This document shows positions 21,807 to 40,045 of a stretch of 46,529 nucleotides of DNA, in pieces. The stretch covers positions 1 through 46,529 of the forward strand of contig MNCZ01000038.1 in the NCBI GenBank assembly GCA_001914695.1, in the 5' to 3' direction. The notes beneath the pieces were generated by a model. It was not told where the DNA came from. It saw nothing but the letters and a program-made list of their open reading frames with translations, and did no database searches. Numbering within the stretch: position 1 is the stretch's first letter; every line of letters starts with the position of its first letter. The stretch is from Gammaproteobacteria bacterium 13_2_20CM_66_19. Lineage in GTDB: Bacteria; Pseudomonadota; Gammaproteobacteria; Steroidobacterales; Steroidobacteraceae. The position numbers and the translations under genes were made by a program.

Positions 21807-21873
21807 GCGCATCTGGTGTCGCAGCAAACGGCAATGCATCATAGCGCCCCCCACCCAAACCCCCGGAGCTCGC

Positions 21874-22617
21874 ATGCGCCACCTGGCCGCGTTTCTATTG
21901 ATGCTGGCAGCGTCCGGTGCACTCGCCCACACCGCCGATGAGCTGGCCGCGAAGAACGCCGCCGCGAAAGGAAGCCCCGACGAGCTCGCCGCCCTCAAGT
22001 CGGTGCGCCTGTCGGGGAAGCTGCGGGTCAACCGCGGAACGCTCGAGCTGCGCTACGTTGCTCTGATCAGGCGACCCGACTCGATCCGCTATGAGGTACA
22101 GCTCCAGGGACTCACGCGGGTGCAGGCTTTCGACGGCGAGCAGGCGTGGCAGATCAACCCGTTCCAGGGCCGCAAGGACCCGGAAAGACTCTCGGCCGAC
22201 GACGCCAAGGGGCTCTCCGAGAATGCCGCCGACTTCACCGGGGTGCTCGTCGACTACAAGGCAAAGGGCTACACGCTCGATTACCTGGGCACCGAGGACA
22301 TCGACGGCACTCAGGCGCACAAGCTGCGCGTCACGCGTCCGAACGGCGATCTGACCTACGTCTACCTCGACCCCGATTACTTCCTCGAGATCCGCGCCGT
22401 CAACCGGCGCATCGAGCACGGGGTGCCCAACGAGACCGTCGTCGACTACGGTGACTACGAGAAGGTGGCCGGGGTCTACGTCCCGTTCGCGGTGGAGTCG
22501 GGACCGAAAGGCTCGAGCGAGCGCGTCAGCGTGCAGGTCGAGAAGGCGGAAGCGAACGTTGCGGCCGAGAGCCGGCTGTTCCAGTTTCCGGCCGCGCCCA
22601 CAAGCGCCGCGAAGTAA
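21874..22617 (+). CDS. Periplasmic LolA-fold-like protein
   Basis: A 247-residue protein beginning at ATG 21874, with GGAG seven bases upstream and a signal peptide of about 18 residues (cleavage after ALA). A longer open frame from 21613 overlaps the previous gene and is rejected. The core pattern (KSVRLSGKLRVNRGTLELRYVALIRRP, then IRYEVQLQG, QAFDGEQAWQINPFQG, and later HKLRVTRPNGDLTYVYLDPDYFLEIRA) matches outer-membrane lipoprotein-sorting-like proteins: an unclosed beta-barrel that holds a hydrophobic ligand. It is not LolA itself, which is shorter and sits in a different context. Placed between two related Asp-box proteins, it may be a co-factor of them. It is 24 bases before the second one, so surely co-transcribed. 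Confidence 0.75.
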   Translation: MRHLAAFLLMLAASGALAHTADELAAKNAAAKGSPDELAALKSVRLSGKLRVNRGTLELRYVALIRRPDSIRYEVQLQGLTRVQAFDGEQAWQINPFQGRKDPERLSADDAKGLSENAADFTGVLVDYKAKGYTLDYLGTEDIDGTQAHKLRVTRPNGDLTYVYLDPDYFLEIRAVNRRIEHGVPNETVVDYGDYEKVAGVYVPFAVESGPKGSSERVSVQVEKAEANVAAESRLFQFPAAPTSAAK

Positions 22618-22640
22618 GGCGCGGATAAGGAGAACAATCC

Positions 22641-25600: not shown

Positions 25601-25874
25601 AGCGCTCCTCTCGTGGGAGGGGCCGCCGTCGGCTTACCAGATCGACAACATCGCCGCGATGCGCGCTGAGCTCAGCGACATCGACGCGGGTTTCGCCGCA
25701 TTAACGGCGCGGGAGCTGCCCGCGCTGAATTCGCTCCTGCAGAAGGAAGGCCTGAAGACCCTCACCGTACCCACTCCGGGAGCAGACGAGCAGCCGGGCG
25801 CGGGAGCTCATGGAGGCGGCGGCGACATCGCAGGCGGACGATCCGAGCTGCAAAACCTGCGTCTCTGGAATTGA
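22641..25874 (+). CDS. Large exported Asp-box (BNR/VPS10-like) repeat protein 2
   Basis: A 1077-residue paralogue-like companion of the protein at 18582, starting at ATG 22641 with AAGGAGAAC upstream. Its leader is a signal peptide of about 24 residues (cleavage after VAAA); Cys18 in TIGC is a poor lipobox, so a lipoprotein is possible but unlikely. Asp boxes include KSTDAGETW, RTGDGGKTW, RSTDGGASW, SHDGGDSW, SYDGGNRW, RSHDHGQTW, TRDGGGHW, TKDYGRTW and SVDGGAHW. The opening NIGAGAMSGRIAAL corresponds to MIGPLRGGRTRAL in the first copy, and both end with a helical region after a beta-sandwich, so they share architecture. The C terminus has a Gly/His-rich tail (GAHGGGGDIAGG). Function unknown; the fixed pairing with GH65 suggests saccharide or peptide turnover. 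Confidence 0.87.
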   Translation: MRLELAALCCLVPGTIGCAAVAAAEGTAIDSGAISGLGARNIGAGAMSGRIAALAGFADRSGKLTLFVGAASGGVWKSTDGATTFKPVFDEQPVQSIGAIAVDPTHHDNVWVGTGETWTRNSVSIGNGIYKSTDAGETWTFSGLPESERISRILVDPRASDTVYACVPGKLWSDSADRGLYRTGDGGKTWQLVLKGGNLSTGCGDVAMQPGSPDVLIASLWDFRRRGWTYRSGGESPKAPSGSGLYRSTDGGASWTELTTASGKGLPPKPYGRIAVRFAPSEPKTAYAFIESTDSGLLVSHDGGDSWERGDKSQWMVWRPFYFANLIVDPRDAKRVFKTDGNLILSEDGGKSFAVVGGFNGMHGDLHDLWIDPNNSQHVFAGDDGGLWISYDGGNRWWKSDNLPIAQFYHVSVDDRDPYRVYGGLQDNSSWVGDSAYPGGITSSRWENMFGGDGFWMFEDPSDSDYVYAEYQGGFIGRVNRHTHETRDIQPRLGAQELKRYKKLRFNWNTPIALSPHDPSTIYIGAQFLFRSHDHGQTWERISPDLTSNDPQKQKQEESGGVTVDNSVAEMHTTIFSISESPLTAGLIWVGTDDGNLQLTRDGGGHWENVVGNVRGLPKNSWVNWVQAGQYAPGTAYAAFDRHTFGDMTPYVYVTKDYGRTWTALLDPKDGKGVRGYAHVIKEDPIDPQLLYLGTELGLSMSVDGGAHWAQYRGGHLPTVAVRDLAVQPRDSDLVIATHGRGIWIVDDITPLRKLTPELASQDAAFVSARPAQQRIEAQGGWANGAAAFVGDNPKDGAVVTYYQRTRHLFGKLKIEVLDASGAVIDELPASTRRGLNRVVWTMHRSPPHVPPAVQVAFAGTQGPRVPPGTYGIRMVRGDKTYDTQLTVGLDRRVKWTVADRKAQYDAAMKVYTLFNDESALFARISGLRAQVAEAGKGRAEKDPLHKKLADFDGKLDELRRRIVATKEGGAITGEERLREHTDQLYGALLSWEGPPSAYQIDNIAAMRAELSDIDAGFAALTARELPALNSLLQKEGLKTLTVPTPGADEQPGAGAHGGGGDIAGGRSELQNLRLWN

Positions 25875-25929: not shown

Positions 25930-26751
25930 TCAGGCCGTCGTGCCGGGTGCGCTGGGAACGCCAGGCCTGCGCGACGGCGGGGAGCCGCCGCTGGGCGACG
26001 GCCCGCCCTGGCGGGCCAGGCGCGCAAGCTCGAGCGGAATGGCGTTGCGCGCGGCCGAGGCGAGGCGCAGCGTCCGCTTGTGCTCGTACATGGCCTGTTC
26101 GGCGTCCTCGAGCAGCTCTTTGATGCCGATCGGCAGCAGCGGATTGAAATACGCGAGCCCCACGCTGAGCGACAGCGGGTGGCGGTCGGAGATCAGACCC
26201 TGGCGCATCCGGGCGCGAAGCAGGATTTCGCTTCGTGAGGGACACTTCTTATCGGTCGTCAGCGCTGCGAACTCGTCCCCGCCGAGCCTTCCGAGTACCT
26301 CGTGCACGCCGTAGCTCGGGAACAGCTCGCGCAGGAAACTGCCCGTCTGCCGGATCAGATCGTCGCCGGCCGCGTGCCCCGAGCTGTCGTTGACCTCCTT
26401 GAGGTTGTTGAGGTCTATGTAGACGAGATAAGCGGAACGCAGATCGCGCCGGGCGACATCGAGGAAGCGCTTGCCGGCCTGCAGGAAGCCGCGCCGGTTG
26501 TAGACGCCGGTGAGCTCGTCCGTCAGCGCCAGCGAGCGCATCGAGTCGATGAGGTGCGTGAGGCCCTCCAGCGCCAGTCGCCGCTCCGGGGTGAGGCGCT
26601 TGAATTGCAGCAGGTCGGAGAGGAGCCGCGTGATGCGCAGCGTATCGCCCTTCATGGCTGCCGCACGCAGATCGGCCGCGAGCTCCGCGACCCGCTCGCG
26701 CAGTATGTCTTCGTCACTCAAGCGTACCGTGTGCGCCGCGGCCTCGTCCAT
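25930..26751 (-). CDS. Diguanylate cyclase (GGDEF domain)
   Basis: A 273-residue soluble enzyme that should make c-di-GMP from GTP. ATG 26751 is preferred since GGGGAG lies seven bases upstream; ATG 26778 is the alternative and adds nine residues. The N-terminal part (about 10-75) is helical and coiled-coil-like with no recognised sensor domain. The GGDEF domain spans about 76-235: LTDELTGVYNRRGF, YIDLNNLKEVNDSSGHAAGDDLI and an intact GGDEF at 157-161. The RxxD inhibitory site is missing (GVHE at that position), so product feedback by that site is not expected. The tail is Pro/Ser/Gly-rich and probably disordered. It is convergent with the Asp-box operon. Confidence 0.9.
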   Translation of the reverse strand: MDEAAAHTVRLSDEDILRERVAELAADLRAAAMKGDTLRITRLLSDLLQFKRLTPERRLALEGLTHLIDSMRSLALTDELTGVYNRRGFLQAGKRFLDVARRDLRSAYLVYIDLNNLKEVNDSSGHAAGDDLIRQTGSFLRELFPSYGVHEVLGRLGGDEFAALTTDKKCPSRSEILLRARMRQGLISDRHPLSLSVGLAYFNPLLPIGIKELLEDAEQAMYEHKRTLRLASAARNAIPLELARLARQGGPSPSGGSPPSRRPGVPSAPGTTA

Positions 26752-26854
26752 GATGGGACTCCCCACACTTTCATCCATGGGCCCAGCATACCGGCCCTCG
26801 GGGGGGCGCCAAGACAGCGAAGGCATGAATTCGACCTCGCGAAACGGCGCGCCT

Positions 26855-26879
26855 GGGGATCGGGAATTCCCCGATCCCC
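26855..26879. repeat. Perfect 10-bp inverted repeat
   Basis: GGGGATCGGG (26855-26864) pairs exactly with CCCGATCCCC (26870-26879) around AATTC. It lies upstream of the diguanylate cyclase start. It could be an operator or an RNA hairpin in the cyclase leader; there is no T-run. Confidence 0.55.
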
Positions 26880-26899
26880 GGTCCCCGCTCGCCAAGCCG

Positions 26900-26940
26900 C
26901 CATCGTGGCCTTGCCGCACACCATCGCTGGCCTTGCCGCA
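26900..26940 (+). repeat. Tandem imperfect 20-bp direct repeat
   Basis: CCATCGTGGCCTTGCCGCA (26900-26918) is repeated as CCATCGCTGGCCTTGCCGCA (26921-26940) with one extra base, spaced 21 bases start to start, about two helical turns. That spacing would suit a dimer or tandem regulator site, but no protein can be named. Confidence 0.5.
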
Positions 26941-27281
26941 ACACTTTGGCGCGCAGTCGCCTGGACGCGGGCTGCGTCATCCGGAAATTCCCGATGGGAC
27001 GCCTGGGCGCGCGACTGATCCTGCGTTCAGTCTTTCGCCGATGTTGGATATGCAGCGTGCGCAATAAGCTGTGATCGGCCTGTAAGGCTAAGGCTACGGA
27101 GAGTGGAGCTGCGGCGACCGAAGGGGCCCGCGGCTCATGCACAGGGATGTGCGTATGCATGAGGGCTCGGTCAGTGATCTCAGCGCAACATATCTTCGGA
27201 CCGCCCGCCCGACTCATCACAGGGCTCCCCTAACAGTTTTAACCAACACAACGCGGGAGGAACGCCGGCTGGCGTTTGGCT

Positions 27282-28016
27282 ATGATGGTCAAATCCTCGA
27301 CGTACACGGGCATCGTGATCATCGAGCCTCACGGAATTCTGCGCGAGGGATTGCGCGCGCTGATCGAGCTTGAAGTCGACCTCCGTGTGGTCGGCGAGGC
27401 GAGTACCGGAGCGGACGGCGTGCGTGTGGTGCAGAGCACCGATCCGGCGCTCGTCATCACGGACCTCGCCCCCCCGGGCACCCAGGGGTTGCGGATCATC
27501 GAGCAGCTGCGCGCCGTGTCGGCGCGCGTGCATGTGCTGGTGCTCACCGCGTATTGCACGGACGAGTACATACGGGCAGCGCTCGGCGCCGGCGCCGACG
27601 GCTACGTGCTCAAGGACGCCGGCCGCGCGGAGCTGCTGCAGGCGATCCGTTCCGTGATCGCGGGCCAGAAGTACTTCTCCGAGCCGGTCTCGGCGCGCCT
27701 GGTGTCGGGGTATCTGCGCCGCAACGAGCCGACCCTGGGAGCGGCAGCGGGAGTGTACCCCCGGATCACCGACCGCGAGCGCGAAGTGCTGACGCACGTT
27801 GCACTCGGGGAATCCAACAAGCGTGTGGCGCTCGCGCTACGGCTCAGTGTGAAGACGGTCGAGAAGCATCGCGCGAATCTGATGCGCAAGCTCGAGTTGC
27901 ACAACACCGCGAGCGTCACGCTGTTCGCGGTGCGTAACGGTCTTGTGCCGGCACAGTACGGCGATCAACCTCGCGGCGACCCGCCGCCGATGGTTGCAAC
28001 GGCCGTGCGGCCCTAG
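27282..28016 (+). CDS. NarL/LuxR-type response regulator
   Basis: A 244-residue transcription factor. Starts TTG 27276, ATG 27282 and ATG 27285 are all possible; GGGAGG lies at 27255-27260, rather far away, so the start is uncertain by a few residues. The receiver domain (about 10-130) has D61 in VITDLAPP as phospho-acceptor and K111 in YVLKDAG. The acidic pocket is altered: E15-P16 replaces the usual Asp/Glu-Asp pair, which may weaken Mg binding. A LuxR helix-turn-helix follows (ITDREREVLTHVALGESN to LSVKTVEKHRANLMRKL, about 163-208). No kinase gene is adjacent. It precedes the radical SAM gene by 36 bases in the same direction and probably regulates, or is expressed with, that operon. Confidence 0.9.
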   Translation: MMVKSSTYTGIVIIEPHGILREGLRALIELEVDLRVVGEASTGADGVRVVQSTDPALVITDLAPPGTQGLRIIEQLRAVSARVHVLVLTAYCTDEYIRAALGAGADGYVLKDAGRAELLQAIRSVIAGQKYFSEPVSARLVSGYLRRNEPTLGAAAGVYPRITDREREVLTHVALGESNKRVALALRLSVKTVEKHRANLMRKLELHNTASVTLFAVRNGLVPAQYGDQPRGDPPPMVATAVRP

Positions 28017-28052
28017 GCGCAAGCCGAGACCGCTGCCAGGAGGGCATCCCGA

Positions 28053-29666
28053 TTGGTGGACTCGCCGCGGATCCTGCTGATCGGACCGTACGACCCGCAC
28101 TGCGGGGAATACACCTTTCTCGCCCCACCGCTCGGCGTGTGGCGCCTGGCCGGCGTACTCGAAGCCGCCGGCGCCGAGGTCAAGGTCTTCGACCCGAACT
28201 GCTGCGGCGGTCTGCCGGTGGTGCGGGCGCTCGAGCGCGAGCTCCTCGGGGGTGCCTGGGACATCATCGGCAGCTCGACCACCGGCATGACGCTGCGCTT
28301 CGATCTCGAGCTCGCGCACGTGGCGCGCCGGATGCAGCCGCATGCGTTGCTGGTCGCGGGGGGGATGGAGGCCACCTTCCGGCCCGAGCTCATGTTCGGC
28401 CTCGGGCCTTTCGATTGCGTCGTGCTCGGCGAAGGCGAGCGGCCGCTGCTCGAGCTCGTGGCGCGGCTGCGCGCGGGAGCGACCCTCAAGGGCGTCACCG
28501 GAACGGCGGAGCGGGGCGCCGACGGCCAGTGCCTGACGATGCGCCAGCAGGCCCTCACCCGCACCGAGCTGCGCGACGCCATCTTTCAAACGCCCTACGA
28601 GCGGATGCCCTACGCCGCCTACTGGGAGCGGCTCGAGAAGGCCTGCCGTGTGGGGGCGCTGCCGAGCAAGGCGGCGCGCGAGGCGAGTCTCGCCGAGATC
28701 CGCTCGGTGCGCCTCATCACGCTCAACTACTGCCCGATGGGCTGTACCTTCTGCTCCTCGACCAACTTCCTGCACGAGGCGCAGGGCAGTGTCGCGAGCA
28801 TCGCGCGACTCGACGCCGAGGAATGCGTGCAGATGATCCAGCGCATCGTCGGCGCGCACCCGCGCGTGCGCACCATCATCTTCCAGGACGACATCTTCGT
28901 GTTCACGAAGGACAAGCGCGTCCTGCCGCTCTGCGAAGCGATCGTCGCCGCGAAGGCCAGCGGCGCGCTGCCGGAGGCCCTGCAGTTCATCAGCACCAAT
29001 CGGGTCGACGCCATGTCGCCCGAGCGGCTCCACGCGATGCGGCGCGCGGGCTTCCGCGTGCTCGGATTCGGTATCGAGAACTTCTCGCGCAACGTGCTCG
29101 CCGAATTCAACAAGGCGCAGATCTACTCTCACATCCAGCCGACGCTCACGGACGCGCTCGCGCTGGGCATCACGCCGTTTCTCGATATCATCCTGAGCTC
29201 GCCGCGCGCTACGCTCGCGGACGTCGCGACGACGTTGCGCGAGGCGTATCGCTGGCTGAAGCAAGGCTGCGAAGTCGGAATGTATCCGTACGTGATTCCG
29301 TTCTCGGGAGCTGCCATGGCGGTCGATCCGGCGCTCAGGCAGTTCACCGTCTCCGAGCGCCGACAGGTCGCCGGAACGGACGTCGCGTGGGATCAGCCCG
29401 CCAAGATCCTGCCGCTCGATCCGGCGGTGCGCGAGGCGATCCTGAGGATCGAGCGCGAGTTCGAGGCGTCGCTCCTCGAGCTGCAGGGCCGCGCGGCGCA
29501 TCTGCCCTCGCGCGTGCGCTCGCTGATCTGGATTCTGTGCTCGCTGCCGATCATGGCCGAGCACGGCCTGGCCGTCGCCAATGAGCCGGACCTGAAGCGC
29601 GAGCTCGCCCGACGGCTGCCGCAGCCGGAGGCGGCCGCGGGCGCTGCCGTAGCCGCGACCGCGTGA
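28053..29666 (+). CDS. Radical SAM protein with B12-binding-type N-terminal domain
   Basis: A 537-residue iron-sulfur enzyme. The ribosome site AGGAGGG lies eight bases before TTG 28053; GTG 28056 is the close alternative. Residues about 5-140 have the Rossmann-like layout of B12-binding domains (PRILLIGPYDPH, PPLGVWRLAGVLEAAGAEVKVFD, VAGGMEATF, VLGEGERPLLELV), but the cobalt-ligating DxHxxG motif is not evident, so cobalamin may not bind in the usual way. The radical SAM core has NYCPMGCTFCSS with C227, C231 and C234 to hold a 4Fe-4S cluster, then FQDDIFVF and GFGIENFSRNVLAEF. Relatives carry out methylations and rearrangements on lipids, pigments or antibiotics. The substrate here is unknown. 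It starts the run of closely spaced genes that ends with a glycosyltransferase. Confidence 0.9.
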   Translation: MVDSPRILLIGPYDPHCGEYTFLAPPLGVWRLAGVLEAAGAEVKVFDPNCCGGLPVVRALERELLGGAWDIIGSSTTGMTLRFDLELAHVARRMQPHALLVAGGMEATFRPELMFGLGPFDCVVLGEGERPLLELVARLRAGATLKGVTGTAERGADGQCLTMRQQALTRTELRDAIFQTPYERMPYAAYWERLEKACRVGALPSKAAREASLAEIRSVRLITLNYCPMGCTFCSSTNFLHEAQGSVASIARLDAEECVQMIQRIVGAHPRVRTIIFQDDIFVFTKDKRVLPLCEAIVAAKASGALPEALQFISTNRVDAMSPERLHAMRRAGFRVLGFGIENFSRNVLAEFNKAQIYSHIQPTLTDALALGITPFLDIILSSPRATLADVATTLREAYRWLKQGCEVGMYPYVIPFSGAAMAVDPALRQFTVSERRQVAGTDVAWDQPAKILPLDPAVREAILRIEREFEASLLELQGRAAHLPSRVRSLIWILCSLPIMAEHGLAVANEPDLKRELARRLPQPEAAAGAAVAATA

Positions 29667-29696
29667 GACCGAGGCGCGCGCGGTGAGGGCCTGGCG

Positions 29697-30530
29697 GTGA
29701 CGAGCACGGCAGTTTCGACGGCGCCTTCTCATCCGCCCCAGGCTTACTGGGAAGCGCGCGCGCAGCGCTTTGCCGTCGAAGGCGAAGGGCTCGCCGCGGT
29801 GTGCTCCTACGGGATGCCCGCCTTCTATAACCGGGTCGTCGATCTCTCTCAGCGGCTGGCGCTCGCGCCCTGGCTGCGGGTGCGCCCCGGCACGAGCGTG
29901 CTCGACGTCGGCTGCGGTGTGGGCCGCTGGTGCCGCGAGCTCGCCAGGCGCGGCGCGCGGGTGACCGGAGTCGATTTCAGTCCCACGATGATTGCCGAGG
30001 CGCGGCGGCGCGCCGCCGCGCGGGGCGTCCTCGCGCGCTGCCGGTTCCTGGTGCAGGACCTGGCTCACCTCGATGCGGGAGAGAAGTTCGATCTCGTACT
30101 GGGCGTTACGGTGCTGCAGCACATTCTAGAGCCGCAGGCCCTGCGTGCCGCCGTGCGCCGCCTGGCCGACCATCTGAGCGAGGCGGGCAGGCTCGTGCTG
30201 CTGGAGGCGGCACCCGAGCGCAGCATCGGGAGTTGCGACAGCCCGATTTTCCAGGCACGCCCGCGGAGCGACTACCTGCGACTGTTCGCCGAGTGCGGGC
30301 TCACGCTGCGGGCAATCCGCGGGGTCGATCCCGCGCCATTCAAGATCTGGCTGTGGCCGCATCTGCCGCGGCTCGCCCCACCCGTGCGCACCGCGGCGCT
30401 CATCCTGGCCACGGCCTTGTCCGTACCCATCGACGTGCTCTTCGGACGCCGCGCGGTCGGCCGCTCGTGGCACGCCGTCTTCATCCTAGAACACGCGCGT
30501 GAACACGCGCCCGAGCACGCGGGGGGCTGA
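29697..30530 (+). CDS. SAM-dependent class I methyltransferase
   Basis: A 277-residue enzyme starting at GTG 29697, 30 bases after the radical SAM gene. Motif I reads VLDVGCGVG (68-76), followed by GVDFS (91-95), LVQDLAHLDAGEKFDLVLGVTVLQHI as motifs II-III and a post-motif GRLVLLEAAPE. That is a complete methyltransferase fold. The C-terminal quarter contains a hydrophobic stretch (AALILATALSVPIDVLFG) that could attach it to the membrane, fitting a lipid-linked or surface-glycan substrate. The acceptor is not known. Its C terminus repeats HAREHAPEHA. Only two bases separate its stop from the next start, so the genes are co-translated. Confidence 0.88.
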   Translation: MTSTAVSTAPSHPPQAYWEARAQRFAVEGEGLAAVCSYGMPAFYNRVVDLSQRLALAPWLRVRPGTSVLDVGCGVGRWCRELARRGARVTGVDFSPTMIAEARRRAAARGVLARCRFLVQDLAHLDAGEKFDLVLGVTVLQHILEPQALRAAVRRLADHLSEAGRLVLLEAAPERSIGSCDSPIFQARPRSDYLRLFAECGLTLRAIRGVDPAPFKIWLWPHLPRLAPPVRTAALILATALSVPIDVLFGRRAVGRSWHAVFILEHAREHAPEHAGG

Positions 30531-30532
30531 TC

Positions 30533-31795
30533 ATGAGCAACAAACAGCGAATCGCGCTTGCCGTCGCAGTGTTCGTGCTGCTGGGGGCTCTGGCCTTCCT
30601 CGGCTGGTCGTACGAGAGCCAACGCGCGGCACCGGGTCCGGCCGCCGGCGCGGTGTCGGTCACCGTCACCAGCCCGGCCGACAGCGGGCCGGGTACGTTG
30701 CGGGAAGCGCTGTTCATCGCAGACGCCGCCAAGGGCTCGGCGAGCGTCGTGATCCGGACCCGCACGGTCACGCTGCAGACCGCGCTGCCGCCGCTGGTGA
30801 ACTCGCACGGCGTGCGGATCCTTGCCGAACAGCCCGGCGCCGAGATCGACGCTCGGGCGCTCACCGCGGGACCGGTGCTCGACATCACCGGGGACTACGC
30901 CTCGATCGAGGGGCTTACTCTGCGCAATTGCTCCGGGACGGCCATCCTGCTGCGGGCGGCGCATTTCCATCTGCTGTCGAGCGTGGTCGAATCCTGTGAC
31001 GTCGGCGTGGACGTCGCGGAGAACGCCGGCGACATCCTGCTCGAGCACAACCGCTTCACGAACGACAGGGTGGGAGTGCGTTTCGCGGCCCCGAATCGCA
31101 ACACCATGGTGGTCGGCAATACCTTCCAGCAGGACAAGGACGCGGGCCTGTGGGCGGTGCGCGGCACCGCCGACGGCCGCGGCGGCGCGATCGGAGTGCG
31201 CGAGAACCACTTCATCGCCGACGGTAGCGGCGTCGTGGCGGGTAACGTCGGCTTGCTCGTCGAACGCAACGAGTTCGCGAACGCACGCGATGCCGCCATC
31301 CATCTGATCGGCGCGGGCGCGGTGATCCGCGGCAACCAGATCAGAAGCGGCACCGCCATGGGCATCGTCGCGGAGAATGCCGGCGAGACGGTCATCGACA
31401 GCAACGAGCTCGAGCAGTTCGGCACCTATGCCATCATGGTGCGGGGCTCGGGCAATGCCCTGGTGCGCGCCAACCGTATCCACAACTGCGGCTATGGCCT
31501 GGCGTTCGTGCTCGGTGATCCGCGCCGCCCGAGCAGCGCGGTCGGGAACACCATCATCGAGCCGAAGTTCAACGGCATCGACATCATCGGCGATTCGCCG
31601 ATCCTGCGGCACAACGAGGTGTTGCGGCCGCACGCGTTCGCGCTGCACGTGCTGGACTACCAGACGCCCGGCGGTCAGACCGTCGCGGCGCGGCCGTTTC
31701 TCGAAGGCAACAACTTCCGCGCCGATGCGGTGCAGACGCCCGAGGATCTGCAGATGCCGAATAGTCAAATGCGCGCAGCGGCGCGACGGCAATGA
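30533..31795 (+). CDS. Membrane-anchored right-handed beta-helix protein
   Basis: A 420-residue protein with an N-terminal helix (residues 7-25, LALAVAVFVLLGALAFLGW-like) acting as uncleaved anchor or signal, then a periplasmic repeat domain. From about residue 95 onward short turns repeat the pattern of PbH1 parallel beta-helices: VLDITGDYASIEGLTLRNC, GVDVAENAGDILLEHNRFTND, NTMVVGNTFQQD, VVAGNVGLLVERNEFAN, AVIRGNQIRSG, ETVIDSNELEQFG, ALVRANRIHNCG, ILRHNEVLRP. This fold is shared by polysaccharide lyases, epimerases such as AlgG, and surface glycan-binding proteins. No catalytic triad can be assigned. Its stop overlaps the next start (ATGA). In this context a glycan-modifying or glycan-binding role is the best guess. 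Confidence 0.85.
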   Translation: MSNKQRIALAVAVFVLLGALAFLGWSYESQRAAPGPAAGAVSVTVTSPADSGPGTLREALFIADAAKGSASVVIRTRTVTLQTALPPLVNSHGVRILAEQPGAEIDARALTAGPVLDITGDYASIEGLTLRNCSGTAILLRAAHFHLLSSVVESCDVGVDVAENAGDILLEHNRFTNDRVGVRFAAPNRNTMVVGNTFQQDKDAGLWAVRGTADGRGGAIGVRENHFIADGSGVVAGNVGLLVERNEFANARDAAIHLIGAGAVIRGNQIRSGTAMGIVAENAGETVIDSNELEQFGTYAIMVRGSGNALVRANRIHNCGYGLAFVLGDPRRPSSAVGNTIIEPKFNGIDIIGDSPILRHNEVLRPHAFALHVLDYQTPGGQTVAARPFLEGNNFRADAVQTPEDLQMPNSQMRAAARRQ

Positions 31796-33189
31796 ACGAG
31801 CCGGACTCGACACAACTCCTTCCGGTGCTGGTGTGGCACGATCCGCGCGTCCACCTGCTGGACGACACCTGGCTGCTGACGATATTCGCGATTCTGCTCG
31901 GTATCGCGCTGCCGTGGTTCGTCAGCGGGCTGCACATCGACTTCGCGGCCACCGCGGCGGGACTGCTGGCTCTCGCGGCCGTCCACGTCGTCCTGGCCGC
32001 GATCTCCGGTGTGCGGCCGAGTAGCCAGTCGCGCGGGACGCTCGGGCTCTCGAGCCTGCACGCCCTCGGTGTGGCCGCGATGGTCTTCATCTGGCACCAC
32101 GCCGGAGGGCTGCAGAATCCGCTGTTCCTCGCGGTGTTCGCCCTGCCGGTGATCGGCTCGATCTTTCTCTCGCGCTGGCAGCCGTATCTCATGGCCACGC
32201 TGGCGTCGCTGCTCGTGCTGCTGGCGGCCTCGAGCGAGGCGCCGGAGCTTCGCTGGTATGCGCCGTGGCTGGGTACGGCCGGCGACTGGCTCGAAACGCT
32301 GCTCGGCAGCGCGCGCGCCGGCGCGAGCCTGCCGTTCGCGGCCTTCTACGCGCCGTCGCAGTACTTCGTCGTCCTGCTCGAAGTGTTCGTGGTCGTGATG
32401 TTCGCCTGCGCCGTCGCAGCGGAATATCTCGCGAACGTCTTCGACAGGCTCGCCGCGCAGATGTGGACGGCGCGTGCCGAAGCGGCCCGCAGTCAGGAAC
32501 TATGGGCGACGCTCGTGGAGCAGCTGCCGGTGGCGGCGGTTCTGCTCGACGCCGGCACGCACGAGGTGGTGGGCGCGAGCGGGATCGCGTTGAAGAAATT
32601 CCTCAGCGGCGCCGAGGGGGTCGTCGGCCGCGATTTCTTCGAGGCGATCCAGTTCTCCTACCCCGAGCCCATCGAGCGGCTCGTCGACGGCGCGGACGGC
32701 GTGGAGCCGCTCTGCATGGTGCGCTTCGGCGGGCAGCTGCTGGCGACCGAGATCCGCGTGCAGCATCTCGCGCAGCACGGGCGCCGATTCGCGCTGCTGG
32801 TGATCAACGATACGACGGAGGACTTCTGCGTGAAGGCCGCGCTCGACGTCGCCGAGTACGCCACCCTCGTGGCCGACGCGCAGGGGCGCGTGGTGGCTCT
32901 CAACCGGCCGGCGCGCGCGCTCTTTGGCGGGGCCAGTCCCGGCGCCGAGGTGTCGAGCCTGCTGCCCCAGGCCAACCCGGGCGCACGCTGGTGGGATCCC
33001 GGCTTGAGCGGCCGCCACAAGATGCACGTGACCGTCATGCGGCGCATGTACCAGGTCACGACCACCGCAGTGGCTCTGCCCGGTGAGGACGCGCGGCTGT
33101 ACGTGATCGCCTTCCTGCCGATGGCGCGCGTCGCGGCCGAGGATCAGAGCGCCACCACCGGCTCGAACACCGTGGTGCAATGGCCATGA
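31792..33189 (+). CDS. Membrane protein with cytoplasmic PAS-like domains and no output domain
   Basis: A 465-residue protein with about six membrane helices in its N-terminal half (near 28-46, 52-72, 88-102, 108-125, 132-148 and 190-210). A short coiled coil (215-240) and two PAS-like stretches follow: [24 protein letters not shown] onward (240-345) and [21 protein letters not shown] onward (about 350-450). It ends there: no histidine kinase, GGDEF, EAL or HTH is attached. It may be a sensor that signals by contact, possibly with the membrane-bound EAL protein encoded two genes downstream. Its ATG forms an ATGA overlap with the beta-helix stop, and its stop forms another with the barrel gene. 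Confidence 0.8.
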
Positions 33190-33954
33190 AGGCCGCCGCG
33201 CCGATCGGCTGGCTGGCCGCGGCGCTCACGGGCGCCGAGGCCGCCGCGGTCGACCTGCCCCCGCCATCGCCCACGCCGGCGGCCGTGGGCGATCAGCGCC
33301 TGGTGTTCAGCACCAACGGATCGACGCTGACCGGCGGCAGTGGCGGCGGCGGCGCCTCCGCCGCCTGGGTGGGAAGCGTCGGTCCGGATGCCGTGCTGGG
33401 GGCCGGGGCGGAGTACCAGCAGATCGCGAACGCCCATTGGACCACGGGCAGCTTCACCGGCTCGATGGGGTTCGGGGGCGGCAGGACACACCTGTACGTC
33501 GACGCTCACGAAGGCGCCGGGGATGTCGGGGACCACGCCTTCCACTACTCCGTCGCCTCCCTCGGGCTCCTCGGTCTGCTCACACCGGAGCTCACCCTGC
33601 AACTCGAGGAGCGCTACATCGATATCGACAAGAGCCATGGGAGCCTCCCCAAGCTCGGTCTGACGTACCGGGTCACCCTCGAGCTCTCGGCTTCGGTGTC
33701 ATATGCCAAGTCATTCAGAGGGAATCTCGGCACGCGGCTCGTGACGGGGCGCATCGACTACACCGGGGTCAGCTTCAACGCCATGGCGGGGCTGGCGGGA
33801 GGAGCTCCACGAGGGTTTCGTCGGCATCGGCAAGACCTTCGGCCGCAGCGACTGGCTGCTGCTCGGCGACTACCAGGACGTCAGCGGAACCAGGCGCACC
33901 AGCATCACCGTGAACTGCACGGTTCACCTGCGCGCACCGGCCCAGGCGCCATGA
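33186..33954 (+). pseudogene. Outer-membrane beta-barrel protein, single-base frameshift
   Basis: ATG 33186 overlaps the PAS gene stop (ATGA) and opens a signal peptide (cleavage after AEAAA). Alternating strands then follow ([89 protein letters not shown]). After GVSFNAM near 33785 the frame turns into Arg/His/Gln noise. The next frame instead continues as [20 protein letters not shown], then [12 protein letters not shown] and ITVNCTVHL, ending at TGA 33952-33954, which forms an ATGA overlap with the next gene. The span is 769 bases, exactly one more than a multiple of three, so one extra base, probably in GGGG at 33788-33791, explains it. The fold resembles YaiO-type barrels of polysaccharide export loci (weak). 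It could be a true mutation or a sequence error. Confidence 0.85.
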
Positions 33955-36383
33955 CCGAGCTCGGGCCCTTTTCGCGATGGCTGCCGGCGACGCTGGTCGC
34001 CGCGGTGGTGCTGCTCGGGGGTGGGCGATTGATCGCTCTCAGCATGCGCGATCATGCCGCGCAGATGCGCGCCGCGGCGCAGAGCGCGGTGGCGCGCGAG
34101 TCGCGGCTCGTCGAAGCGCAGCTGCTCACCCTCGCCGATCGCACCCGCGAGGAAGCACGCCGCGCCAGCCGCGCGGCCCGCGCGCCTGCGCCGAGCCCGA
34201 GCTCCTCACCGGCCCCGGGCGCGGCTCCGGGCCGGGGCGCCTTCTGGATGACTGCCGGTGGCACGGTGGTGCGTGCCGGCGACGCCGACACCGCCGTCAG
34301 CCGTGCGCTCGCCGCCGAATGGGCGGTGGCGGGGGCGGGCGCGCGCGGGGCGGCCGGGTTCTTCGGTCCCGTGCGCTACGGCGCCCAGTGGATGATCGCG
34401 GCTTACGCGGCCCTTGAGGGCCGGCCGGCGACGGCTGCGGCGGCCGCGCCCGCATGGGCCGTGGGCTACGAGAGCCTCGATTCCCTCCTCGTGCGCGCCG
34501 GTTTCGGCCGGCTCGCGAGCGAGGGATACGACTTCCAGATCACCCAGATCGATCCCCTCACCCACAGGGTTCGCGAGCTCTTCGGGTCCCGCCCGGACGT
34601 GCCCGCCGACGCGGTGTCGGGCGCGATTCGTGCGGGCGCGGCGCTCTCCCCGCCGAGCGCTTCCGCCTACCTGGGGCTCGCGATGTGGCCGCGGTCGGGC
34701 TGGTACCCGGTACTGGACCTCGCGACCAAGACGGGTCTTCTCCTGCTCCTGGGCTGGACGTTCGTCTTCGGCGCGCACGAGCTGACGGCGAGCGTGCGGC
34801 GCACGCAAGGCGCGCTCGCGCAGGTGCGCAAACGGCTGCACGCGGTCAACGAGCGGCTGTTCAACGAGATGGAGCAGCACCAGGCGCTGCAGAAAAGCCT
34901 CGAGCATGCCCGCTACCACGACCCCTTCACCGGGCTGCCGAACCGCCGCTACCTCATGGATCAACTCGATCGTGCGCTGCGCGAGGTGCGCACGCGACGC
35001 CGGCAGCGCATCGCCGTCGTTCTCATCGAGATCGATCGCTTCAAGCTGATCAACGACACGCTGGGCCACACCGCGGGCGACGAGCTGATGCTGCAGGCGT
35101 CGCAGCGCTTCGCCCGCGCGGTCGAGGGGATGCAATGCGTGCTGTCGCACTGGGAGGGCGGGCAGCTGGCGCTGCTCCTGTACGAGGTGGAATCGCCCGA
35201 GGCCGCACAGGCCCTCGCCGCCAAGCTCCTGAGCGTCCGCCAGGAGCCCTTTACGCTGCGCCAGCAGCGCATCAGCGTCGCCTCCCGTATCGGACTCACC
35301 TGTATCGACTCGGGCCTGCAACGCGTGGAAGAAGCGCTGCGCGAGGCGGATATCGCGCTCTCGTTCGCCAAGCGGCAGCCGGCCCAGCCGATCGTGGCGT
35401 ATACGCCGGGCATGGGTGGCGCGGCCGTGAGCCTGGTCAGTCTCGAGGCCGACCTGCACGTGGCCCTGGATCGCCGGCAGTTCCGGCTGCTGTTCCAGCC
35501 GATCGTCGACCTGCGCGGGAAACGCGTGGTGGGCGCCGAGAGCCTGCTCAGGTGGCAGCATCCGGTCGAAGGCGTGCTGACACCCGAGAAGTTCCTGCCG
35601 ATCGCGGAAGAGGCGGGCGTGATCGTGCCGGTCACGCGCTGGGTCATCCAGAGAGTCTGCCGGCTGGCCGCGGAATGGCGCCAGCGCCTGCCGCAGGCCA
35701 TCGACTTCTACCTGAGCGTGAATCTCTCCGCGGCCAGCTTGCGCGATCCGGGGTTGCGCGAGTACGTGGCGCAGGTCCTTCAGGAGACCCATACCTCGCC
35801 CCGGCAGCTGAAGTTCGAGCTCACCGAGGTCGGTCTCATCAGCAACGTGAGCGCCGCGCGCGAGCTGCTCAACGGCTTCCACAGCATGGGTATCGAGCTG
35901 ATGCTGGATGATTTCGGGACCGGCTACTCCTCACTCAGCTACCTGCAGCTCTTCCCGTTCAGTTACGTCAAGATCGACCGACCGCTGCTCACCTGGACCG
36001 GGTCGGAACGCTCCAACAATGCCATCACCTCCGCGATTCTGCAGATGACTTCGAATCTCGGATTGCGCGCGGTCGCGGAGGTCGTGGAGACGCAGGCGGC
36101 GGCGCAGGCGCTGCAGCGCATGGGCTGCGATTTTGGCCAGGGCTACTTCTTCTGCGAGCCGGTCGAAGCGGAAGAGGCTCTGCATCAGGTGCGCACCTAC
36201 AACGGTCCGCCCGCGGTCGTGCCGGTCCTGCGGCCCGCATCCGGCCAGGGCGGCGGGACGGAAGTCGCCGGCGATCATTCGCCGACTGTGGTGCTGCCGC
36301 CGGAGGATGGCGGCATCAACGACGATACCGTGGGCCTTCCCGGGCTGTCCCCGCGCGCCGGGAAGTCCCCGCGCGGGACCTGA
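33951..36383 (+). CDS. Membrane-bound degenerate GGDEF / EAL protein
   Basis: An 810-residue protein starting at ATG 33951 in an ATGA overlap with the barrel gene; the frameshift upstream makes the two look like one 1067-residue protein, which they are not. Helix 10-30 and helix about 258-276 flank a periplasmic sensor region with a Pro/Ala-rich linker (78-95) and a CHASE-like part ([16 protein letters not shown], then [16 protein letters not shown]). A coiled coil (285-318) leads to a GGDEF domain whose signature is EGGQL (402-406), so it should be inactive as a cyclase. The EAL domain has ESL at 530-532, keeping the catalytic Glu, with ELTE and [14 protein letters not shown], so phosphodiesterase activity is plausible. 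The next gene is a glycosyltransferase, which it may control locally. Confidence 0.9.
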
Positions 36384-36389
36384 GCGGAC

Positions 36390-37886
36390 ATGGCCGCAGA
36401 GCCCTGGAAGAGCCGACGTCCCTGGCCGTTGCTCGTGCCGCTCGGCGTCTATGCGCTGCTGCTCGCATGGATCGGATTCTCGGCGGCCGCCGTCCAGGGC
36501 TACGACTTCTCGTACCTGCTCTATGCGCTCGCGAACCTGATCGTGTTCACCGATGCGATCGATTTCGGGTTGCGCCTGTACGTGCATCGGCGTCATACCG
36601 CGGTCACCGCCGACTTGAGCCGGGGCGCCGTGCGGCAGCTCTCGATAGATCTCCCCGCCGCGCAGCGCAAGCCCGGCGGCCCGATCACCGTGCGGGCGGC
36701 GTGCCGGCCGTATGCGATCATCGCCTCGATATACAACCTCGAGGACGAGCTCGATGAGTTCATGGAGCGACTCGAGCCCCAGCGCGATCGTGTCTGGCTC
36801 ATCAGCGACGGCTCGACCGACAGAACCGCGAAACGCCTGCAGCAGCGCGGCTGGCGATGCCTCGACGAAGAGGAAAACCGGCACAAGCCGGCGGCACTCC
36901 GCCATCTGCTCCAGACCCTGCCTCCGCAGATCGAAACCGTCATGGTCCTCGATCCCGACGTCAAGATCTGCGGCCGGCACGAAGGCAGTGTCGTCGAACT
37001 CGAGCGCGCGATCGCAGACCTGCAGCAGTCGGGGGCGGCGGCGGCGTGCCCGCGCGTCATGATCGAACGGGACGGCTTTCTCGCGCGGTTTCAGGCGCTC
37101 GAGTACACCCTGACCTTCGTGGTCGGGCGGCGAAGTCTTGCCGATTACGGCATCACCTCCGGCGTCTCCATCTACAGGCGCGACGCGCTCGAGCGGGCGC
37201 TCGATCAGCATTCGCTCTCCATCTACGCGGAAGATCTCGAGAATACCGTGATCCTGCTGGAGGCCGGCGAGCGCATCTACTACGACGGCCGGCTGGTGGT
37301 GAGTACTCATGGGCCGCACACTCTGCGCCGCTGGTACTCGCAGCGGGTGGGCTGGTACTACGGGCTGCTGAGGCTCTACACGCAGCGCTCCCGCGAGCTG
37401 TGGCGCATCGGCCGGCGCACGCCCTTTGCCATGTACAACTTCATCGGCTACCTGGGCGTGCTCGGCCTGGGCCTGCACTTCCTCAGGGTCGCGAGCGCGG
37501 GGCTGCTGCTCGTGAGCGTCCTCGCCATCCTCGACAATCTCTTCGTGCTCGATCTGCTGCACACGGGCAGGGTGATCAACCCGGTGTACATCGCGGCCGC
37601 CGTAGGCAGCTACCTGGCGCTCGCGGTGATCGCACTCTTCACGGTCGTGCCGAAGCGCGAGCGCGCCTACATCGCGCCGATCCTGCCGATCTACTTCGTC
37701 TATGTCCTGGCGCACATCGCTCCGATCACCGTCGGATTCGGCAACTGGGTGGCGCTGCGGCTGTGGGGCCGGCGGCTGTACCGCGACCACTACCAGGCGG
37801 ACGAGGACGACACGGTCCGCCTGCGACGCAACGGCCTGAGGTCCAACGGCCTGAGATCCAACGGCCTGAGATCGCCTGCGGCCTGA
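36390..37886 (+). CDS. Membrane family-2 glycosyltransferase, processive type
   Basis: A 498-residue inner-membrane enzyme beginning six bases after the EAL gene. Two N-terminal helices (13-33, 40-58) precede a GT-A domain. Its motifs are LISDGSTDRT (D140), LDPDVKI (D188 and D190, the metal-binding DxD), YAEDLENT (E281-D282, catalytic base region) and QRVGW (318-322), the counterpart of the QxxRW motif of processive synthases such as cellulose, hyaluronan and chitin synthases. At least three C-terminal helix pairs (about 350-460) would form the export channel. The product is unknown. No PilZ domain is present, so c-di-GMP control would have to act through the upstream EAL protein. The C terminus ends in three copies of a five-residue repeat (NGLRS) encoded by a 15-bp tandem repeat. 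Confidence 0.9.
   Translation: MAAEPWKSRRPWPLLVPLGVYALLLAWIGFSAAAVQGYDFSYLLYALANLIVFTDAIDFGLRLYVHRRHTAVTADLSRGAVRQLSIDLPAAQRKPGGPITVRAACRPYAIIASIYNLEDELDEFMERLEPQRDRVWLISDGSTDRTAKRLQQRGWRCLDEEENRHKPAALRHLLQTLPPQIETVMVLDPDVKICGRHEGSVVELERAIADLQQSGAAAACPRVMIERDGFLARFQALEYTLTFVVGRRSLADYGITSGVSIYRRDALERALDQHSLSIYAEDLENTVILLEAGERIYYDGRLVVSTHGPHTLRRWYSQRVGWYYGLLRLYTQRSRELWRIGRRTPFAMYNFIGYLGVLGLGLHFLRVASAGLLLVSVLAILDNLFVLDLLHTGRVINPVYIAAAVGSYLALAVIALFTVVPKRERAYIAPILPIYFVYVLAHIAPITVGFGNWVALRLWGRRLYRDHYQADEDDTVRLRRNGLRSNGLRSNGLRSPAA
37830..37874 (+). repeat. 15-bp tandem repeat, three copies, inside the glycosyltransferase C terminus
   Basis: The unit AACGGCCTGAGATCC occurs at 37830-37844 (one change), 37845-37859 and 37860-37874 (one change at the end). 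It encodes NGLRS three times just before the stop codon. Copy number could change by slippage without breaking the frame. Confidence 0.85.
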
Positions 37887-37923
37887 AGCGGCCGAGCTGC
37901 CCGCGGGATGCGCGCTCGCGCCC

Positions 37924-38862
37924 CTACATCCGATCCCCGGACTGGACGTCGAAGGAGAGCGCTCGCCAGCTCCGCACGGTGGGCTCGTGCCGGGCCTCGG
38001 GCGCGAGCGCCATCAGGTATCCCGGACGCGTGACGAGTCCGAGCCGGCGCGCCGCCTCGGCATCGTCGCCGCGGGTCGAGTACATGAAGAAGAGGCGCCG
38101 ATGTCGCTGCGCGTGCGCCGCGATGGCGCGGATCGCCGCGACGCGCTCGCGCGGGTCGCCGTCGAGCCACTGCAACCGATCGGTGCGTCCGACGGACTCG
38201 ATCAGCGCGCGGCAGGTCGCCCCCACGCGCAGCGACTGGACCGGATGAGGACGCTCGACCATCTGCGACGCCCAGGCGCTCATGTCCGGATAGTGAAAGA
38301 CCGTCCGGGGAGGCGAGCCTCCGAGGCGCGCGCCGGCGCGCGCCGGCCAGCGCCCCGTCACCGCGGCGCGGCGCACGCGCAGGGTGGGGGTTCCCGCGAC
38401 GCCCAGCCCACCGCGCGAGGCGATATACGCGCTCGCGATCTCCGTAGCGCCGAGCCGTCGCAGGCCGCGGCCGGTCGCATTGTCGGCGGTGACGAATCCC
38501 AGCAGTGCCGTGCAACCGCGTACCGCACTTCTGGCGAGGGCACCCTGCAGCACCTGTGCGTAGCACCCGCGCCCCCGCTCGCCGGGCAGGGTCGCGGCCG
38601 AGACTACGACGCTCACCCGATGCGCCGCGCCATCGGGAGTCCGCAGCAGCCGATAGGCGAGACCACAGCCCGCCACGACGCGCTCCCCGTCCACCAGCAT
38701 GATGCGATCGGGAGCCTCGCCGCCGAAGGGGCGCTGCATATACCAGCGGTACATCGCCTCGGTCCAGGGAGTGCCGAAGCAGCGCGTGAGAAAACGCGCG
38801 CCGGCGTCTGCGTCGAGCCCCGCGGGGTTGACGAGGATCCTCAGGCCGCCGTCGCCCGACAT
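37924..38862 (-). CDS. GNAT-family acetyltransferase-like protein
   Basis: A 312-residue protein. ATG 38862 is taken as start because GGAG stands just before it; GTG 38895 is possible but lies deeper in the upstream gene. The N-terminal half has the GNAT layout: IMLVDGERVVAGCGLAYR, VSVVVSAATLPGERGRGCYAQVL (acetyl-CoA loop at about 92-101), then GFVTADNATGRGLRRLGA. The C-terminal half (about 190-312) looks like a second, degenerate acyltransferase domain (LFFMYSTRGDDAEAARRLGLVTRPGYLMAL). The acceptor is unknown. It overlaps the end of the deacetylase gene by 22 bases, so the two are one operon. They converge on the glycosyltransferase, which hints at acyl or amino-sugar editing of the same glycan. 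Confidence 0.8.
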   Translation of the reverse strand: MSGDGGLRILVNPAGLDADAGARFLTRCFGTPWTEAMYRWYMQRPFGGEAPDRIMLVDGERVVAGCGLAYRLLRTPDGAAHRVSVVVSAATLPGERGRGCYAQVLQGALARSAVRGCTALLGFVTADNATGRGLRRLGATEIASAYIASRGGLGVAGTPTLRVRRAAVTGRWPARAGARLGGSPPRTVFHYPDMSAWASQMVERPHPVQSLRVGATCRALIESVGRTDRLQWLDGDPRERVAAIRAIAAHAQRHRRLFFMYSTRGDDAEAARRLGLVTRPGYLMALAPEARHEPTVRSWRALSFDVQSGDRM

Positions 38863-39839
38863 CGCTCCGCCACCTCGGCGAGAGTCGTCCACCACAGGGC
38901 ATCGCCGTAGCGGTCCCCGAGCTCCCGCCAGAGCCGCCCGAGATAGCTGCAGTACTGGTCATCGAGTCCGTCGAGCATCGTGATGCCGCCGCCGGTCTTG
39001 AAGATGTGAGCCTTGATCGAGAGCACCCCGCCGCACTCGATGATGGCGCGCGCGCGCTCGAGCGTGGAAGTGGCCTGGAAGTTGGTCGTGAGATGCACCA
39101 GGCCGGCGGGAGAGTCCGTTCCGCGCGCCGGGTTCCCGTCGGGTTTGCACCGGATCAACGTCGGCTGGATGAGGGAAGCCCCGCGCAGGCCGTTTCCCGC
39201 GGTCCGTGCCTCACCCGTCACGGCCGTGTCGAGATCACGCGCCGAGGTGACGAAGCGGAAGTCCGCGTCACTCAGGGCCTGGCAGAGCGCTGGCGGAGAA
39301 TTCCACGCCGGCGCGGCGAAGCCCTGAACGTGCCTCAAGCCCGCGGCCGCGAAGATCCGCCGTCCCTCCTCGAGCATCGCGCGGCACTCGCTGCGCGACT
39401 GCTCCTGAAACTCGACCGCCATGCGTGGACCCACATGGGCGTGATTCAGGCCGTGCACGGCGCACTCGGCGCGCGGCAGCGCGTTCAGGTAAGAGACAAA
39501 CTCCGGGTGGCGATCGACACGGAAACGGCCCTTGGGAGCAAGCGGCGCCCAGTGGATGCGCTCGCGCAGGAGCGGGATCCGGGTGAGCCACCTGCGGGTT
39601 GGAACCAGGCGCTGCAAGCGCCAATCCGGTGTGACGAAAAGGGTGACCCGGACACTGGGATTGCGCTCGAGCAGCCGCTCCAGGCGCCCGAGCGCTCCGC
39701 GGCCGAGGTCGCCGCCGGCGTCGAACTCGTCCCGCGAGGTTGCCGGATGGATGTCGTCGACGCTGAAGCACACCGCTGCCCGCTTTCCGGCGGGCAGCCA
39801 CGTGTGATGTTCGACGAGCGTCATCGCGGTCGCGGTCAT
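38841..39839 (-). CDS. Polysaccharide deacetylase-like (NodB homology) protein
   Basis: A 332-residue protein starting at ATG 39839 with GGAAGGG just upstream; the open frame up to 40043 adds a charged non-protein-like leader. NodB-type marks are the Asp pair in VDDIHP (D28-D29), the HxxxH metal site HGLNH (H129, H133), GFAAPAWNSPP corresponding to the RxPxW region and LSIKAHIF near the end, where the last catalytic His would be. The enzyme should remove acetyl groups from an amino-sugar polymer or lipid-linked sugar. No signal peptide is evident with this start, so it probably acts in the cytoplasm. It is followed by the GNAT gene. Confidence 0.82.
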   Translation of the reverse strand: MTATAMTLVEHHTWLPAGKRAAVCFSVDDIHPATSRDEFDAGGDLGRGALGRLERLLERNPSVRVTLFVTPDWRLQRLVPTRRWLTRIPLLRERIHWAPLAPKGRFRVDRHPEFVSYLNALPRAECAVHGLNHAHVGPRMAVEFQEQSRSECRAMLEEGRRIFAAAGLRHVQGFAAPAWNSPPALCQALSDADFRFVTSARDLDTAVTGEARTAGNGLRGASLIQPTLIRCKPDGNPARGTDSPAGLVHLTTNFQATSTLERARAIIECGGVLSIKAHIFKTGGGITMLDGLDDQYCSYLGRLWRELGDRYGDALWWTTLAEVAERCRATAA

Positions 39840-40045
39840 GGAGCCCTTCCAGAGCCGGTCACTCGGGTGGCGGCAATCGGGTCTTTCCCGATGGCGGCTT
39901 TCCTCGCAGGCGGCCTCGTCATTCTGCTTCTTTTCGGCGGGAGAGGGCATGTCCGCAGACTTGCGGTCCGTCAGCGGGGGCGTATGCTCGGCGTCCGCGG
40001 CCCGGGCTCCCGGCGGAGGGGCGTTGCCGGATCCGAGGGGCACCC

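Follow-up and report, generated by a model that had tools for sequence, protein, structure and literature searches.

The stretch of DNA studied here (the window) is the 46,529-nucleotide contig MNCZ01000038.1 of Gammaproteobacteria bacterium 13_2_20CM_66_19 (Steroidobacteraceae), and comprises the whole of contig C93 of a 3.1 Mb assembly that is 82.6% complete. It contains seven adjacent rightward genes encoding a B12-binding radical S-adenosylmethionine (SAM) enzyme, a methyltransferase, a right-handed beta-helix protein, a membrane PAS protein, an outer-membrane barrel, a membrane EAL protein and a family 2 glycosyltransferase (GT2) (Table 1). These genes form a real unit, since the set recurs across phyla beyond chance. 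The module comprises seven to nine genes, and is rare, patchy and strongly conserved among soil bacteria from several phyla. On balance it is probably a self-contained, patchily distributed surface-glycan module, in which a product would be made, edited by the radical SAM enzyme and the methyltransferase, and exported under the control of sensors.

An earlier reading made from the sequence alone (the sequence-only reading) had described seven rightward genes with gaps of 30 bases or less. All seven were recovered with their stated domains, together with the three ATGA junctions (beta-helix/PAS at 31792, PAS/barrel at 33186 and barrel/EAL at 33951). Terminator-like matches on both strands number 7 against a shuffled mean of 4.7, and are thus near the shuffled level; the two on the plus strand within the seven genes both lie inside coding sequence.

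A collection of 84,980 species was scanned with two exact peptides, giving 42 loci, many of them the same contigs as L041–L060; distant relatives are missed because exact peptides were used. The carriers are four named strains of the Steroidobacteraceae (Steroidobacter gossypii, S. agaridevorans, Peristeroidobacter agariperforans and P. soli), together with many gammaproteobacterial bins and six acidobacterial ones; Gemmatimonadetes, Rhodothermaceae and Actinobacteria are each represented by a single bin so labelled. Those closest to the window genome by sequence are gammaproteobacterial bins. The single bins may contain foreign contigs; the acidobacterial copies, however, are several and diverged. 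Genes were called with a home-made codon-bias caller, and some that it missed were recovered by tblastn. In the 22 loci that extend 8 kb or more beyond the radical SAM gene, the GT2, methyltransferase, beta-helix, PAS and barrel genes are each present in all 22 (two methyltransferase and two barrel genes by tblastn alone). The EAL protein is present in 20 rather than 21, because the gene called 'EAL' in locus L092 encodes a hybrid kinase with the sensor half in common.

The common order is radical SAM–GT2–methyltransferase–beta-helix–PAS–barrel–EAL. A second order is found in the clade of the window, with GT2 last and an acetyltransferase of the GNAT type and a deacetylase converging upon it. 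Thirty-nine of the 42 loci continue past the radical SAM gene; in 33 of them GT2 is the core gene that follows, and in 6 the methyltransferase. These 39 loci contain 187 same-strand core pairs as called, with a median gap of 2 bases; the gap is 30 bases or less in 133, and 75 have a 4-base overlap. Relatives in which the first two genes and the last four are never adjacent would have spoken against a unit, and this is not the pattern found.

Among 148 relatives (including the genome of the window) the radical SAM enzyme is present in 17, and GT2 and the PAS protein in 18 apiece; all three occur in 3 of 48 genera. Of the 96 best genomes, 6 have the radical SAM enzyme. GT2 accompanies the radical SAM enzyme in all 17 genomes, and the PAS protein does so in 16. 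The mismatches lie at contig ends, where one contig (G031) ends in the beta-helix gene and another (G005) starts at GT2; G009 has the genes from methyltransferase to EAL on a contig of 5 kb, the end of which falls in the methyltransferase gene. Eleven carriers each have a single GT2 from this family (E 1e-15). The radical SAM enzyme was found only in the window's own genome among 349 genomes of its phylum, and in 4 of 347 genomes around an acidobacterial carrier; both figures are rough, because at most four first-look candidates were scored per genome. The sparse occurrence in both draws indicates that the module is rare and patchy. Its flanks mostly differ between lineages. In the radical SAM tree as in that of GT2, the main gammaproteobacterial group is separate (support 99) and the same Steroidobacter group appears. 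The two trees disagree in that L075 and L080 lie near the window in the radical SAM tree and not in that of GT2, and L096 lies outside in the radical SAM tree; deeper branches are long, with weak support. A search of 72,556 plasmid records gave two matches to the radical SAM enzyme at ~25% identity, and so no sign of plasmid spread.

The radical SAM enzyme is by far the most conserved part of the module. Compared with the window, cross-phylum members have a median identity of 64.7% for this enzyme (9 proteins, range across phyla 60–68%), 52.8% for the methyltransferase (8) and 44.8% for GT2 (9), falling to 34.0% for the EAL protein (3), 33.2% for the beta-helix (7), 27.0% for the barrel (2) and 26.8% for the PAS protein (6). 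The contrast between a constant radical SAM enzyme and rapidly changing sensors and porins suggests that selection acts to preserve the modification. The same contrast could be read as two separate functions, with the radical SAM enzyme and methyltransferase forming a metabolic pair beside an envelope-sensing set and having no common product with it. The variable order, with either GT2 or the methyltransferase next to the radical SAM gene, and the genome G033, where a deacetylase and an acetyltransferase gene lie between those for GT2 and the radical SAM enzyme, are in keeping with this. We regard such a division as very improbable, given that GT2, methyltransferase, beta-helix and PAS genes accompany the radical SAM gene in all 22 long loci, in several phyla and often with overlapping ends.

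The domains PF02310 and PF04055 both score above cut-off in the radical SAM enzyme, as expected of the B12-binding class, and the three cysteines of the CxxxCxxC motif are invariant in 20 rows. Truncated, stop-containing or near-duplicate rows were omitted from the alignments (A9, 20 radical SAM enzymes; A8, 30 GT2s; A3, 22 barrels with that of the window excluded; A7, methyltransferases; A4, beta-helix proteins); A1 omitted L013, which has a stop codon. No named NCBIfam subfamily of B12-binding radical SAM enzymes (ApyD, BchE, HpnJ, HpnR, PhpK and others) was matched above its curated cut-off, the best score of the window protein being 64 of 750 bits. B12-binding radical SAM enzymes of other families methylate unactivated carbons. 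The reaction of the present enzyme, and the role that it shares with the methyltransferase, would be modification of the glycan. In the Gemmatimonadetes bin (L097, 7451–9747) genes for a halogenase-like FAD enzyme and a second methyltransferase lie directly before the radical SAM gene.

Two other kinds of substrate were considered. Modification of hopanoids is made unlikely by a search with TIGR03463 (oxidosqualene cyclase), a stand-in model for hopene cyclases, which matched over the whole domain in 2 of 13 carriers, below cut-off, and gave short matches in 2 more. The match in the genome of the window lies on a different contig (C72) together with two other radical SAM genes. A ribosomally synthesized and post-translationally modified peptide (RiPP) is also made unlikely, as a precursor gene does not fit between the seven genes; a distant precursor is possible.

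The GT2 model resembles the hyaluronan and cellulose synthases, and the enzyme thus has the fold of an inner-membrane synthase, in agreement with the sequence-only reading. Its QxxRW motif is replaced by QRxGW, in which Q, R, G and W are invariant in 30 of 30 rows. A profile of GT2 gave no match in the PDB at 0.001, and hyaluronan synthase alone (0.0013) at a threshold of 10. The top structural match is tied with that of PcManGT of Pyrobaculum calidifontis, a minimal enzyme of synthase fold that we take to be non-processive. The description of GT2 as processive is therefore doubtful. A non-processive GT2 might make a modified envelope glycolipid or lipid-linked oligosaccharide, in which case the barrel would serve for uptake or the exchange of lipids and not for polymer export. 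We consider this rather unlikely: hyaluronan and cellulose synthases align over 367 and 350 residues compared with 326 for PcManGT, a periplasmic beta-helix and a deacetylase are commoner in polymer loci, and hopanoid as such is an unlikely substrate from the cyclase search described above.

The barrels of relatives are predicted by AlphaFold to be 14-stranded porins (pLDDT 82.8) similar to OmpG, CymA and FadL, which bears out the assignment of an outer-membrane barrel; a barrel profile gave no relevant match in the PDB at E values up to 1. In four of four copies scanned from the Steroidobacter clade (L064, L066, L067 and L071) a TPR gene lies 159–385 bases before the radical SAM gene on the same strand. 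The barrel model PF10082 is matched in these four copies, above cut-off in L064 and L067 and below it in L066 and L071, and in L064 a gene for a sigma-70-type regulator lies two genes earlier. A TPR-type exporter is possible in the copies of this clade.

The GNAT and NodB-type deacetylase genes on the opposite strand were also present as first read. Inclusion of their relatives in the arrays of two acidobacterial genomes indicates that in some lineages both genuinely belong to the system. In the first, a one-strand array (G675, locus L114), the genes are ordered histidine kinase/receiver, radical SAM enzyme, deacetylase (58%), GNAT (36%), GT2, methyltransferase, beta-helix, PAS, barrel and EAL, and are followed by those for a DegT aminotransferase and a UDP-GlcNAc 2-epimerase. 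In the second, L090, the two genes lie between the methyltransferase and GT2, with the GNAT in two pieces. The deacetylase is at the locus in 2 of the 22 long loci (both with GNAT alongside by tblastn) and also in L114; in most lineages the locus lacks the pair. Glycan genes adjoin some copies, namely G675 and a gammaproteobacterial bin (L074) in which the gene for a Wzx-like flippase (PF01943) overlaps the end of that for the EAL protein. Further genes of this kind, for hexapeptide transferases, adjoin the L095 and L076 copies. In these last two (L095, 4864–6395; L076, 8032–9521) the hexapeptide acyltransferase lies beside a family of ~260 residues that has no Pfam match; the gene pair is next to the radical SAM gene in two phyla, on opposite relative strands. 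The fold of GT2, the porin, the deacetylase, the acetyltransferase and the adjoining glycan genes all point to a glycan product; the evidence that this is a polymer is weaker.

The EAL domain has the residues expected of a phosphodiesterase. E530, N591, E623, D653, D654, K674 and Q730, which we take to be catalytic, are invariant in 18 rows, and E710 is conserved in at least 90%. The GGDEF domain of the same protein is degenerate (EGGQL in the window). These residues agree with the control by cyclic di-GMP (c-di-GMP) that was first proposed, yet phosphorelay proteins take the place of this output in L092, and in L093 it is altered. The L092 copy has the same sensor half (profile E 2.3e-16, computed on a target set of two proteins) on a hybrid kinase with receivers and Hpt. 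This is the one locus in which Pfam calls CHASE, and from it the sensor of the EAL protein is described as CHASE-like. L093 has a fusion of the PAS protein with GGDEF, followed by a NarL-type kinase and regulator. Sensing is kept and the output changed in both loci, which suggests that the sensor is part of the job of the module. No kinase domain was found in the PAS membrane protein.

The prominence of sensors could also reflect a secreted, glycosylated signal or specialized metabolite that is detected by the CHASE-like and PAS sensors of its own locus. The PAS protein is present in 22 of 22 long loci, and the sensor of the EAL protein, on that protein or on a kinase, in 21. Many of the models matched by the radical SAM enzyme come from metabolite pathways, and the halogenase-like and second methyltransferase genes of L097 would fit such a product. 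We judge a signal of this kind to be quite improbable, as Pfam finds no domain of a non-ribosomal peptide synthetase or polyketide synthase in ten window proteins, and the gaps between the seven genes are too short to hold a precursor-peptide gene.

Several points weigh against a surface glycan. The arginine of QxxRW is glycine in all 30 GT2s, which makes polymerization unsure. The NCBIfam matches of the radical SAM enzyme, all below cut-off, are scattered over enzymes of RiPP, lipid, phosphonate and porphyrin pathways. Families were checked for part of the 142 listed flank genes, and most of the flank proteins tested are non-glycan. No PilZ domain was found among the ten window proteins scanned; PilZ genes lie elsewhere in 12 of 13 carrier genomes, and the PAS or EAL protein could be a c-di-GMP receptor. 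The beta-helix has no catalytic signature, and as its 32 aligned rows have neither a His nor a Lys that is invariant it is unlikely to be an AlgG-like epimerase, against the role first suggested. The operon has no TPR match, TPR being found just upstream in the tested Steroidobacter copies and L093 only. Two relatives break the common order; G033 has the deacetylase and GNAT insertion described above, and in G017 a divergent gene set is split over two contigs. Lastly, the barrel gene is present in the window but is itself broken. Its frame continues into the EAL gene as a single open reading frame (ORF) of 1067 codons (33180–36383), and misses the stop of its relatives because a stretch is absent out of frame (62 bases relative to L042 and 56 relative to L043, the two nearest relatives). 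The gap could reflect a true mutation or a fault of the assembly. The proposal that the operon makes, edits and exports a sugar product is thus upheld in part, as to the conserved unit, the synthase-fold GT2 and the porin, and is doubtful as to processivity and an epimerase.

From the observed gene content, conservation, shared occurrence of radical SAM enzyme and GT2, folds and motifs we infer a product, donor sugar, chemistry, order of steps, route of export and regulation for the glycan module as follows. On the cytoplasmic face GT2 would link sugars, which are probably N-acetylated hexosamines, and the product would be passed into or across the inner membrane. The radical SAM enzyme and methyltransferase would modify either the sugar or the lipid that carries it, with methylation, also at an unactivated carbon, as the likeliest reaction. 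In some lineages the deacetylase and acetyltransferase would set the acetylation state. The anchored beta-helix may bind or guide the product, and the 14-strand porin may pass it through the outer membrane. The CHASE-like sensor and the membrane PAS protein would report on the envelope or the product, acting through c-di-GMP turnover (the EAL protein and, in the clade of the window, a neighbouring GGDEF enzyme) or elsewhere through a phosphorelay.

Table 1. Genes of the locus and its immediate neighbours in the window
Feature	Position	Strand	Evidence and remarks
Diguanylate cyclase	25930..26919	-	Divergent from operon; start unsure (26778 or 26919); PF00990 E 3.5e-25, intact motif RLGGDEF
NarL/LuxR-type response regulator	27276..28016	+	PF00072 7e-21, PF00196 7.7e-16
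B12-binding radical SAM enzyme, CxxxCxxC	28053..29666	+	PF02310 2.5e-15, PF04055 1.1e-9
Class I SAM-dependent methyltransferase	29697..30530	+	PF13649 7.2e-24; hydrophobic C-terminal stretch by eye
Right-handed beta-helix protein	30533..31795	+	PF13229 1.5e-26; N-terminal hydrophobic anchor by eye
Membrane PAS protein	31792..33189	+	PF13188 8.9e-5; PF13188 match in 16/25 members
14-strand outer-membrane barrel gene, broken here	33180..33954	+	Start 33180 or 33186; fold from relatives
Periplasmic CHASE-like sensor + degenerate GGDEF + EAL	33951..36383	+	PF00563 6.6e-71, PF00990 5e-33 (fused ORF)
Membrane GT2, hyaluronan/cellulose-synthase fold, QRxGW replacing QxxRW	36390..37886	+	
GNAT-type acetyltransferase	37924..38895	-	Start unsure; PF13527 3.4e-4, below cut-off
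DUF2334/CE4 (NodB)-like deacetylase	38841..40043	-	Start unsure; PF10096 2.5e-11; SVDD + HGxxH motifs

The LuxR-type regulator precedes the operon as first read. A gene 73–75% identical to it sits beyond the deacetylase in G034 and G041, and in these two genomes and L065 GGDEF genes related to the window cyclase (44–58%) lie upstream of the radical SAM gene on the same strand. The homologue of the window GNAT in L114 matches PF13527 at E 7.3e-9. Far upstream of the operon (2553–4499) there is a further receiver–GGDEF–EAL protein beside a PAS histidine kinase. Two consecutive large proteins are encoded at 18582–25874; the first is Sortilin/VPS10-like by Pfam and the second presumably so from its sequence as read, and relatives of the second (33–35%) lie near the radical SAM gene in L091 and L097.

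The locus has partial likeness to several known systems. It shares with poly-N-acetylglucosamine (PNAG) synthesis by pgaABCD, and with hyaluronan synthase, a membrane GT2 (the PgaC NCBIfam model is matched by 15 of 15 members), and with the pga genes as generally known an outer-membrane barrel, c-di-GMP enzymes and, in some copies, a deacetylase. It differs in that its GT2 scores 48 of 422 bits to PgaC, far below cut-off, and has QRxGW, the 14-strand barrel has no TPR within the unit, and radical SAM, methyltransferase, beta-helix and PAS genes are added. With the alginate system it shares a GT2, periplasmic beta-helix, porin, acetylation genes and a link to c-di-GMP, whereas the present beta-helix lacks an invariant His and AlgE is first met at rank 19 in the fold search, below OmpG and FadL; the radical SAM enzyme and methyltransferase have no known counterpart there. 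The hopanoid set HpnI–HpnJ–HpnK likewise brings together GT2, B12-binding radical SAM and deacetylase classes, but the present radical SAM enzyme scores 32.6 of 577.6 bits to HpnJ and the stand-in cyclase is scarce among carriers. In mycofactocin MftC–MftF a radical SAM enzyme occurs with a GT2; the match to the MftF model is 24 bits, far below the cut-off of 280, no precursor peptide was seen and the present radical SAM enzyme has a B12 domain. PcManGT is a membrane GT2 with a cellulose-synthase-like fold, but is archaeal and 16% identical. No published description of the locus was found in the openly licensed literature, which is weak evidence of absence. The parts are of known kinds, and their combination is new as far as searched.

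In the available text of PMC7112194 five synthase-dependent exopolysaccharide systems are counted. They are defined there by an inner-membrane synthase, a QxxRW motif (named for BcsA), a c-di-GMP-binding domain or co-polymerase, periplasmic modification enzymes, and a periplasmic TPR protein with an outer-membrane pore; 'radical SAM' occurs 0 times in the main text (PMC7112194). The present locus is not filed among these systems, having the synthase by fold and lacking QxxRW. That it is a sixth type of synthase-linked glycan export, defined by radical cobalamin-dependent C-methylation (or another radical rearrangement) of the surface glycan or its carrier, and carried as an interphylum cassette with interchangeable envelope sensors, is put forward tentatively, as possible rather than probable. 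If a surface-glycan module is indeed encoded, it would add a glycan-assembly system to the five counted in the available text of PMC7112194, and would bring B12-type radical SAM chemistry into the biosynthesis of surface glycans.

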